From: an uncultured Rikenellaceae bacterium
GTDB taxonomy: Bacteria > Bacteroidota > Bacteroidia > Bacteroidales > Rikenellaceae
NCBI GenBank assembly: GCA_949287525.1
Contig: CASEGL010000003.1
Location: 1-64,000, forward strand
Reading direction: 5' to 3'
Length of the DNA: 64,000 nt
Below are positions 26,800 to 30,063 of this stretch, piece by piece. Both the position numbers and the translations under genes were made by a program. The number at the start of each line of letters is the position of its first letter. The first letter of the stretch is position 1. Under the pieces are notes generated by a model. The model had not been told where the DNA came from. It did not search any database and saw only the letters and a program-made list of their open reading frames with translations.

Positions 26800-27885
26800 A
26801 TGAAATGTAAAAACAACAGCTTTATGAAATATACGGAGTGCAGCGGCGGCATGTGGAACCGTTCGCACGAGGCGACGGTCGCACGGTTCGGCGCGCTGGG
26901 TGACCGGCTGGCCGGATTCGGCACTACGGAGGCGACGCGGGAAGTGATCGCCGGAGCCGTGTCGGCCAATCCGTGGTTTACCGGGACGGATGTCGTGTCG
27001 GCCGTAGCGGCCATACGGGAGCAGATGCTCGACCGCGACCGGCTGCGGGCGTGGCTGGCGGCATACGGCGAACCGGAGGGCGAGCCGCTGCGGGTGGCGG
27101 TCATCATGGCCGGCAACATCCCGCTGGTGGGCTTTGCCGACCTGCTCTATGTGCTGGCTGCGGGTCATGTGCCGTATGTGAAGCCCTCCTCGAAGGACAG
27201 CGTGCTGATGGCGTATGTGATCGGGCTACTGCGCGGGGCGGAACCTTCGCTGCCGGTCGGCGTGTACGGCGAAGGGGAGGAATACGATGCCGTCATCGCC
27301 ACCGGAAGCGACAATACGGGGCGCTATTTCCGCTCCCGCTTTGCGGAGATCCCCGCCATCATACGGGGCAGCCGCGGTTCGGCGGCCGTGCTGACGGGCG
27401 ACGAGACGGAGCGGGAGCTGGTCTTGCTGCGTCAGGATATGCTGCGCTACGGCGGATTGGGATGCCGCAACGTGAGCCTGCTCTTCGTGCCGGAGGCATG
27501 CAGCCTCGAACGACTCGTCGGCATGCTGCGGGTGCAGCGCGCCGACGTGCATCCCAAATACTACAACAATTACCGCAGCCTGAAGGGTAAGCTGGCCGTG
27601 TCGGGCGAGCGGTTTGTCGATTGCGGCAGCTTTGTGCTGACCGACGGAGAGGAGTTTCCGACCGAGTTGAGCCGCATCGTCGTGTGCCGTTACCGTACTC
27701 CGGAGGAGGTGTGTCAATGGTTGGCGGCTCACGATGACAAAGTGCAGTGCGTGGTCAGCCGCGATGGCGGGTATGTGCGCGGCGTGCGGTTCGGCGAGGC
27801 GCAGTCGCCTGCGCTGGCCGACTATCCCGACGGCGTGGATGTGCCGGCTTTCCTGGCCGGTGTGAGCCGCCTCAGAAACGCTTGA
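26800..27885 (+). CDS. LuxC-like acyl-CoA reductase family protein
   Basis: The 361-residue product resembles the aldehyde-dehydrogenase-fold acyl-CoA reductase family (LuxC). VAVIMAGNIPLVGFADLL at 99-116 and KPSSKD at 128-133 match the cofactor region. Cys222 in GGLGCRNVS is the likely catalytic thiol, and IIRGSRGSAAVLTGDE precedes it. LuxC reduces activated fatty acids in luminous bacteria; homologues in Bacteroidota have no established role. Its 3' end overlaps the convergent msrBA gene by 14 bases. Alternative ATG starts lie at 26824 and 26851. Confidence 0.82.
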   Translation: MKCKNNSFMKYTECSGGMWNRSHEATVARFGALGDRLAGFGTTEATREVIAGAVSANPWFTGTDVVSAVAAIREQMLDRDRLRAWLAAYGEPEGEPLRVAVIMAGNIPLVGFADLLYVLAAGHVPYVKPSSKDSVLMAYVIGLLRGAEPSLPVGVYGEGEEYDAVIATGSDNTGRYFRSRFAEIPAIIRGSRGSAAVLTGDETERELVLLRQDMLRYGGLGCRNVSLLFVPEACSLERLVGMLRVQRADVHPKYYNNYRSLKGKLAVSGERFVDCGSFVLTDGEEFPTELSRIVVCRYRTPEEVCQWLAAHDDKVQCVVSRDGGYVRGVRFGEAQSPALADYPDGVDVPAFLAGVSRLRNA

Positions 27886-28756
27886 CGCGCAGGTGGCAGT
27901 ACGGGACGGTACCCCGCAGGTCGTAGTGGTTCTGGTGGTACGCTTCGGCCGGCCAGAAGACACCGGCCGGGGTCAGCCGCGTGGCCACGTCGTAGCCCCT
28001 GGCCGTCAGCCGGTCGGTCAGTGCATCGGCCGTGAGGCGCTGGTCCTCGGATGTGTAGAAAATTTCGGAACGATACTGTTCGCCGATGTCGGGCCCCTGG
28101 CGGTTCACCTGGGTGGGGTCGTGAATCTCGAAGAAAAGACGGGCCAGTTCCTCGAAGGAGACGATCGCCGGATCGAAAACGACGCGCACCGTTTCGGCGT
28201 GGCCGGTCGAGCCGCTGCACACCTCCGGATAGGACGGCGCGTCGGTGCGGCCGCCCATGTAGCCCGACGTGGCCGACACGACACCTTCGCGATGGCGGAA
28301 ATGGTACTCTACGCCCCAGAAGCAGCCGCCCGCGAAATAGGCCGTCTCGTAGCACTTGCCGTGAGCCGCGCGGTCGGCGCCGGCAGGCAGAAACTCCATC
28401 GACAGGGAATTGACACAGTGGCGGGTCTGTTTTGGGGTGAAGCCTTCGCCGGTGAAGACGTGACCCAGATGGCCTCCGCAGCGGGCGCAGAGAATCTCCG
28501 TGCGGCGGCCGTCGGCATCGGACTGGCGGCGGACGGCTCCGGGAATCTCGTCGTCGAAACTCGGCCAGCCGCACCCCGCGTCGAACTTGTCGTCCGAACG
28601 GTAGAGCGGGGCGCCGCATCGGCGGCAGAGGTAGGTGCCTGTGCGGCGTTCGTTGAGGAGAGCGCCGCTGAAGGGCGGCTCGGTGGCCTTGTCGCAGATG
28701 ACGCGGCGTTCGGCGTCGGTCAGCGGGCGGTATTCCATAAGCATATCCGGTTGCAT
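27872..28756 (-). CDS. Bifunctional methionine sulfoxide reductase MsrB-MsrA
   Basis: This protein repairs oxidised methionine. The 294-residue fusion has MsrB first (zinc cysteines 44, 47, 90 and 93; catalytic Cys114 in RHCVNS) and then MsrA (GGCFWG with catalytic Cys145, and later QYRSEIF and AEAYHQNHYD). Many bacteria carry the order MsrA-MsrB, but B-A fusions are also known. There is no signal peptide, so it is cytoplasmic. The start at 28756 is chosen from the MsrB alignment; two in-frame ATGs downstream are possible. It converges on the LuxC-like gene. Confidence 0.93.
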   Translation of the reverse strand: MQPDMLMEYRPLTDAERRVICDKATEPPFSGALLNERRTGTYLCRRCGAPLYRSDDKFDAGCGWPSFDDEIPGAVRRQSDADGRRTEILCARCGGHLGHVFTGEGFTPKQTRHCVNSLSMEFLPAGADRAAHGKCYETAYFAGGCFWGVEYHFRHREGVVSATSGYMGGRTDAPSYPEVCSGSTGHAETVRVVFDPAIVSFEELARLFFEIHDPTQVNRQGPDIGEQYRSEIFYTSEDQRLTADALTDRLTARGYDVATRLTPAGVFWPAEAYHQNHYDLRGTVPYCHLRVKRF

Positions 28757-28830
28757 GTTATGCGAAAGTAACGGTTTTGTCGGGCGGGTTCGCATGCGGC
28801 TGCGGATTTTTGCGTAAATTTCGAACCGTT

Positions 28831-30063
28831 ATGAAAAGCGGACATGCCGATCTTCCCCTGCATTACGGGACCGTTCCCGCATGGCTGGCTCAGCGCATGA
28901 GCCTGCTGGGCGGAGCCATCGTCGAGGCCATCGTCATGGAGTATGGCCGATCGGAACTGCTGCGCCGGCTGGGCGATCCGTTCTGGTTCCAGTCGCTGGG
29001 ATGCGTGCTGGGCATGGACTGGCACTCGTCGGGCATCACCACCTCCGTCATGCACGCCCTGAAGAAGGCGGTCAATGTCCGGTCGCAGGAGCTGGGCATC
29101 TACATCTGCGGCGGACGCGGCCGTTCGTCCCGCCAGACGCCGGACGAACTGCTGCAGGTGGCCGAGCGGACGGGACTGGACGGGCAGGCGCTCGTCCGGA
29201 GCAGCCGGCTGGCCGCCAAGGTGGACAATACGGCCGTGCAGGACGGCTTCCAGCTCTATCTGCACAATTTTGTCGTGACCTCCGAGGGCGAATGGGCGGT
29301 CGTGCAGCAGGGCATGAACCCCTCGACGCGCATGGCGCGCCGCTACCACTGGCTGTCGTCGTCGCTGCACTCCTTTACCGAGGAACCCCATACGGCGGTG
29401 TGCGGCCGCAATCAGGGGCTGATTCTGAACCTAACCCACCACGATGCGGCGCCTACCAAGGAGAGCCTGCTGGCGCTGACCCGCCAGCAGCCCGACAGGA
29501 TGCTGCGGGAGGCGGCGCTCGTCATGCCCGCCCACCACGAGGTTCGGGCTGCGGATGTCGATCTGAAGCGTCTCGGCGCGGCGCTCCGGCTGGCGCACGA
29601 GACCGATGTGCGCAATATGGAGGAACTGCTGCTGTTGCAGGGGGTCGGACCGCGCACGCTGCAGTCGCTGACGCTGGTGAGCGAGGTGATTTACGGTACG
29701 CCCTCCCGTTTTGCCGATCCGGCGCGTTTTTCGTTTGCCCACGGCGGCAAGGACGGCCATCCGTTTCCCGTGCCGACGCAGGTTTACGACGAGACGATCG
29801 CCCTGTTCGACGACGCCATCCATCGTGCGCGGCTGGGCGATCGGGACAAGGCCGACGCCCTGCGCAACCTGTCGCAGATAGCTGCCCGCATGGAGGAGAA
29901 CTATACTCCCTCGCCGTTTCTGGACGACTGGATCGCCCGCGAGCGTGCCAATGCGTGGCGTTGGGGCGGGCGTACCGTTGCCGGAAAGGCGCAGCCGCCG
30001 AAAAAATCGGAAACGGAGGAGCAGGCGGCAACAAGACCCTGTCAGTTATCGTTATGGGAATAG
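28831..30063 (+). CDS. DUF763 protein with helix-hairpin-helix and clamp-like C-terminus
   Basis: The 410-residue protein matches DUF763 (COG1415): GHADLPLHYGTVPAWLAQRM at 4-23, DPFWFQSLGCVLGMDWHSSGITTS at about 49-72, and DNTAVQDGFQLYLHNF at about 132-147. Residues about 262-285 (LLLLQGVGPRTLQSLTLV) look like a DNA-binding helix-hairpin-helix. The last residues, QLSLWE, resemble the beta sliding clamp-binding consensus QLSLF. The function of the family is unknown; the features suggest DNA metabolism (inference). The ATG at 28831 is chosen because family conservation begins there; the frame is open to 28777. Confidence 0.88.
   Translation: MKSGHADLPLHYGTVPAWLAQRMSLLGGAIVEAIVMEYGRSELLRRLGDPFWFQSLGCVLGMDWHSSGITTSVMHALKKAVNVRSQELGIYICGGRGRSSRQTPDELLQVAERTGLDGQALVRSSRLAAKVDNTAVQDGFQLYLHNFVVTSEGEWAVVQQGMNPSTRMARRYHWLSSSLHSFTEEPHTAVCGRNQGLILNLTHHDAAPTKESLLALTRQQPDRMLREAALVMPAHHEVRAADVDLKRLGAALRLAHETDVRNMEELLLLQGVGPRTLQSLTLVSEVIYGTPSRFADPARFSFAHGGKDGHPFPVPTQVYDETIALFDDAIHRARLGDRDKADALRNLSQIAARMEENYTPSPFLDDWIARERANAWRWGGRTVAGKAQPPKKSETEEQAATRPCQLSLWE

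Follow-up and report, generated by a model that had tools for sequence, protein, structure and literature searches.

DUF763 proteins of Bacteroidota end in a conserved peptide predicted to bind the DNA sliding clamp

The window analyzed here, a stretch of 64,000 nucleotides from an uncultured Rikenellaceae bacterium, carries on its forward strand an open reading frame (positions 28831-30063) that encodes 410 amino acids plus a stop. The sequence-only reading of this DNA had named the product a DUF763 protein, and the profile search bears this out: residues 4-314 match the Pfam family PF05559 (DUF763) with an E-value of 1.1e-136 and a score of 455.7 bits against a cut-off of 35.5, spanning positions 1-319 of the 319-position model. 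The gene is present in one copy within the 1.68-Mb host genome. We place its start at ATG 28831, which is also where homologues start, their N-termini following the pattern M-K-[RS]-G-x-A-D-L-P; a longer alternative from TTG 28777 has no support from homologue starts. Divergent to it, on the reverse strand, lies a gene (27872-28795) for an MsrA/MsrB-like methionine sulfoxide reductase fusion, as judged by eye from the translation. NCBIfam holds no model for the DUF763 protein, and a sequence search for relatives with a solved structure returned none. A phage or viral origin was discarded, as no DUF763 relative was found among IMG/VR contigs or phage records. The family occurs across archaea, many hyperthermophiles and thermophiles included (PMC554113), and of 5.39 million open papers, one mentions DUF763 by name.

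The core domain (residues 14-238; 28870-29544, forward strand) was delineated from the alignment and from an AlphaFold2 model, where it is mixed alpha/beta. It contains several blocks that are unchanged among members (GxDWxSSGxTT, GGxGxxSxxTP, KVD, QDG, WxVxQQG, and ARRYHW), and in the alignment these core motifs recur in haloarchaea and Bacteroidota alike. Scored across 12 diverse members, one haloarchaeon among them, the invariant residues comprise P16-W18-L19-R22-M23 and P50-W52-F53-Q54 in the N-terminal part; G57-V59-G61-D63-W64-S66-S67-G68-T70-T71, G94-G95-G97-S100-T103-P104, S125-A129-V131-D132, Q137-D138-G139, Y143-H145, W155-V157-Q159-Q160-G161, and A169-R170-R171-Y172-H173-W174 further on; and P233, G271-G273, and D296-P297-A298 in the C-terminal part. 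Residues 132-161 (29224-29313, forward strand), with D132, Q137, D138, H145, W155, Q159, Q160, and G161 invariant, form a candidate active or DNA-contact site. Asp132 and the stretch EGEWAVVQQG had been suggested earlier as possible parts of an active site; of these residues D132, W155, V157, Q159, Q160, and G161 are invariant, and the glutamates vary. Judged by conservation, the polar set D132/Q137/D138/H145/Q159/Q160/RRYHW is the strongest contender for a site of catalysis or DNA contact. A likeness of the KVDN stretch to the KxDG motif of ligases was dropped, because K130 and D132 lie near the end of helix 118-135 in the model.

The other recognizable element is a helix-hairpin-helix with a GVGP loop at about residues 262-288 (29614-29694, forward strand), identified from the alignment and the AlphaFold2 model and in agreement with the GVGP-type hairpin that had been read at about 262-285. 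In the segment LLLLQGVGPRTLQSLTLV, G271 and G273 are invariant from haloarchaea to Bacteroidota, and the loop is flanked by modelled helices 263-267 and 274-288; the protein has the helix, hxGhGxx loop, and second helix of this motif, with its conserved glycines. No Pfam helix-hairpin-helix family matched the DUF763 protein at E <= 1. From the presence of the motif we infer that the folded core binds DNA.

The AlphaFold2 model of the whole protein, built from a shallow 81-sequence alignment of one phylum, has a mean pLDDT of 80.6, with residues 20-220 mostly above 80. A helical part on the N-terminal side is followed by a strand and the GGRG loop, and then by a sheet of three strands (141-150, 155-163, and 168-175). 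Toward the C-terminus come the helix-hairpin-helix, a long helix at 316-356 with a further one at 364-378 (29776-29964, forward strand), and finally the linker and tail, both modelled with low confidence. Residues 14-238 were also modelled on their own, with a mean pLDDT of 81.7. Searches of solved structures with Foldseek and VIA-align gave no convincing fold relative for either model, and no convincing viral fold relative was found for the whole model. The best Foldseek E-values were 0.66 (full model) and 0.22 (residues 14-238) and the best VIA-align Z-scores 5.1 (3.4 A over 63 residues) and 4.0, all at background level and obtained with models from a shallow alignment. Because that alignment is both shallow and restricted to one phylum, a fold relative may have been missed, and the absent match does not by itself make the DUF763 fold new.

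Past the last helix, a variable, low-confidence linker in the model and alignments (about residues 386-404; 29986-30042, forward strand) leads to QLSLW (residues 405-409; 30043-30057, forward strand), which its conservation and the published consensus mark as a predicted sliding-clamp-binding motif. One Glu follows, and the chain terminates PCQLSLWE, confirming the QLSLWE end that had been noticed and likened to clamp-binding peptides. The clamp-binding pentapeptide consensus is QL[S/D]LF or QxxLF, and PolC carries QLSLF at its extreme C-terminus (PMC12309361, PMC3919608). We compared the ends of 109 distinct Bacteroidota proteins, taken from whole genomes and named genome contigs of several classes. 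The pattern Q[LM]x[LIM][FW], with 0-3 further residues behind it, closes 104 of the 109, against a mean of 0.015 tails when the last 25 residues of each protein are shuffled. The other five miss the pattern narrowly (QLRIQF, QLNIRF, QLSFF, QGSLF, and one QLNLW with a longer extension after it). The tail of the Bacteroidota proteins is conserved far above chance. In the 81-sequence alignment the peptide is near-invariant on a variable linker: Q is found in 81 of 81 sequences, the two leucines in 79 and 78, and the last position is F in 68 and W in 11. The third position varies freely among K, S, R, E, and N, in keeping with QxxLF. The Trp form belongs to the window protein and related Bacteroidales, and the others have Phe. 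The linker ahead of the tail runs to about 7-29 residues of free sequence in Bacteroidota homologues, and pLDDT stays below 50 at 392-403 and 405-410, the tail being modelled as unstructured.

The marks of a clamp client are found together here, namely a conserved motif, an accessible unstructured segment, and DnaN in the host, whose genome has one copy (DNA_pol3_beta). We also searched the host gene ends by exact DNA patterns for QLxLF-stop and QLxLW. True gene ends with QLxL[FW] were found in RNase HII (QLSLF), topoisomerase IV/gyrase subunit A (QLNLF), and DUF763 (QLSLW) only, and the remaining matches lie within genes or in another frame. The first two ends map to G000:C6:42770-42787 (L120) and G000:C23:1001-1018 (L121, L136), respectively; given these ends, both proteins probably count among the clamp clients of this lineage. 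At 27 further match sites in other Bacteroidota, a small sample, the ORFs of at least 120 amino acids that truly end in QLxLF were UvrD-type helicases only, with the end RQLELF (L157, L158).

On the strength of its conservation, its position, and the company it keeps, the DUF763 tail of Bacteroidota very likely serves to bind the DnaN sliding clamp. Conservation by itself leaves the partner unnamed, and the tail could instead have been kept for docking on the protein's own core or on a different partner, with no clamp binding. We regard this as very unlikely: the peptide agrees with the clamp consensus at each position and leaves the third residue free, it lies past a disordered linker of very variable length, it tolerates the exchange of F and W, it is absent from other phyla with the same core, and in the host genome no gene ends other than those of RNase HII and topoisomerase IV subunit A were found to share it.

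The relatives beyond Bacteroidota in our comparison are plasmid records from Rhizobiaceae, Rhodopseudomonas, Legionella, Devosia, Shinella, and haloarchaea; members from Sulfolobus, Pyrococcus, and Xanthomonas stand outside the tail comparison. The plasmid-borne relatives of Rhizobiaceae, Rhodopseudomonas, and Legionella lack the QLxL[FW] tail, their chains stopping shortly after GGRSVFG. The PIP box of archaea and eukaryotes is defined as QxxLxx[FY][FY]; four haloarchaeal relatives lack it at the C-terminus, their chains ending earlier. The simple rule once proposed, that the tail should accompany DnaN and give way to a PIP box in archaea, therefore fails on both counts. Since alphaproteobacterial, Legionella, and haloarchaeal relatives do without the tail, clamp docking by this route is dispensable for the core activity. 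Two copies change frame midway and have no annotated CDS, one on a Shinella zoogloeoides plasmid (L134:3001-4108) and one on a Devosia plasmid (L131:4001-5345), and for these reasons both are probably decayed.

The proteobacterial and haloarchaeal proteins share a hypervariable insertion just ahead of the MPxHH core motif that is found in none of the Bacteroidota proteins. In proteobacteria (L032-L034, L036-L038, L134, L137-L146) the insertion closes with Q[LP]x[LI]P[HY]L or a sequence near it (QLTLPHL, QLVLPHL, QLQIPHL, QPLLPHL, QPMLPHL, and QPMLPYL) in all sequences examined except the decayed Devosia copy. These peptides recall clamp peptides of the QLSLPL type (QLxLPL); alternatively, they may be structural. 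In the same loop, four haloarchaeal sequences from three genera, all on plasmids (L035:5983-7128, L130:4001-5158, L132:3001-4146, and L133:3001-4158), keep a PIP-like QRSL[AS]DFG. The likeness is suggestive, and these groups may carry internal clamp-like peptides, which we consider the most interesting, if unproven, lead of the analysis. Taken to its limit, it would make DUF763 a widespread, previously unrecognized class of clamp-tethered repair enzymes with an unseen fold, in which clamp peptides were gained independently in each lineage: QLxL[FW] at the C-terminus in Bacteroidota, Q[LP]x[LI]P[HY]L inside the chain in Alphaproteobacteria and Legionella, and QRSL[AS]DFG, likewise inside the chain, in haloarchaea. 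We hold this broad reading to be unlikely as a whole.

Gene neighborhoods were inspected for functional clues. The neighbors vary and include a DnaE-type polymerase upstream (three loci), Fpg/Nei-type glycosylases (three), DUF72 (three), endonuclease V, and MGMT, and in Rhodopseudomonas an AlkB gene shares one base with the start of DUF763. The majority of neighbors are unrelated to repair, and the counts given here are raw. A conserved operon or universal partner was discarded, as the neighbors are mostly lineage-specific; an example is the block GH130, metallophosphatase, DUF763, oxidoreductase of Pedobacter-like genomes. In three genomes (L074:2841-5840, L078:2714-5719, and L083:2718-5723) the DnaE-type polymerase, about 1000 amino acids long, is encoded directly upstream in the same orientation; it may represent the short form of DnaE2 that has been reported from Bacteroidetes. 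In one haloarchaeon, orc1/cdc6 adjoins DUF763.

The distribution of DUF763 is patchy: it was found in 13 of 80 relatives of the window's genome and in 19 of 296 genomes phylum-wide (own genome counted). Across the 296-genome phylum sample, Ku is encoded in 16 of 18 DUF763-positive genomes (own genome excluded) versus 23 of the 277 others. Within the class the numbers are 16 of 16 versus 15 of 54 (Fisher p 1e-7), and two lifestyle controls gave weaker associations, AlkB with 16 of 16 versus 39 of 54 (p 0.016) and catalase with 13 of 16 versus 22 of 54 (p 0.009), these p-values overstating independence because the genomes are related. Within one genus, Ku accompanies all six DUF763-positive genomes versus one of 11 negative ones. 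Life in soil and genome size may account for part of the Ku link.

Such strong co-occurrence would suit an accessory role for DUF763 in Ku-dependent end joining, as would Ku about 5 kb from DUF763 in one genome (G217) and ligD about 2.6 kb from the frame-shifted gene of the Shinella zoogloeoides plasmid. Against this, the relatives search found Ku in none of the 80 genomes of the window's own family and order, 13 of which carry DUF763, nor in the own genome, and Ku is missing from two further DUF763-positive genomes of the phylum sample. DUF763 is thus not always found with Ku, as a Ku/LigD component would be, and Ku as an obligatory partner is ruled out by its absence from this family and order. 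In addition, flanks of up to 6 kb at 80 named Bacteroidota loci contained no Ku or LigD, and end joining is not known to depend on the clamp in the systems described. A role in end joining is therefore, in our estimate, rather improbable.

Taken together, neighbors and co-occurrence point toward DNA repair. In the reading that we consider likely, DUF763 binds DNA and probably processes or repairs it; in Bacteroidota its tail is predicted to dock it on DnaN, and the protein is accessory and patchily inherited. The folded core would grip DNA through its helix-hairpin-helix, and in Bacteroidota the disordered C-terminal linker ending in QLxL[FW] would dock the protein on the sliding clamp; it would then be an accessory genome-maintenance factor and not a core part of the replisome. 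An alternative that we find possible, although distinctly less probable, keeps the clamp binding and makes DUF763 a structural or regulatory DNA-binding factor in replication or chromosome handling, and no repair enzyme. It would fit the other clamp-tailed host proteins, a nuclease of RNA-DNA hybrids and a topoisomerase, as well as the proximity to orc1/cdc6 and the absence of a recognized enzymatic fold. It sits poorly with the invariant D132, Q137, D138, H145, Q159, Q160, R170, R171, and H173, which resemble an active site, with an accessory spread unlike that of core replication proteins, and with the repair genes among the neighbors.

Returning to the clamp-docked repair protein, the sequence-only reading had already proposed a clamp-recruited repair or processing enzyme. 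The recruitment and repair parts gain from the Bacteroidota tail, the repair-type neighbors, and the co-occurrence; the enzyme part found no relative of enzyme fold in its favor. We infer both the repair role and the enzymatic activity, and judging from sequence comparison, DUF763 of Bacteroidota is probably a DNA repair protein that the clamp recruits and that has been overlooked. Docking on the clamp, as predicted, would put it to work on DNA at the replication fork, behind the fork, or during repair synthesis. For a family of archaea and bacteria with no assigned function, the predicted clamp peptide is a first concrete handle.

Compared with the archaeal and eukaryotic PIP box, the haloarchaeal QRSL[AS]DFG has one aromatic residue only, is internal, and is represented by four related sequences, and the window protein has no such box. 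The match to Pfam DUF763 covers the whole model, which ends before the tail, so that among the sequences compared here the tail is a trait of Bacteroidota. The likeness to helix-hairpin-helix proteins lies in the two helices about a GVGP loop with invariant glycines, whereas the rest of the DUF763 protein has no recognized fold. A further parallel is the QL[S/D]LF clamp motif as found in PolC. The window protein and other Bacteroidales DUF763 proteins differ from it in having Trp for Phe at position 5, and their binding is predicted; the conservation of positions 1, 2, 4, and 5, the location at the extreme C-terminus, the flexible linker, and the occurrence of the motif in two other proteins of the same genome, RNase HII and topoisomerase IV subunit A, are shared.
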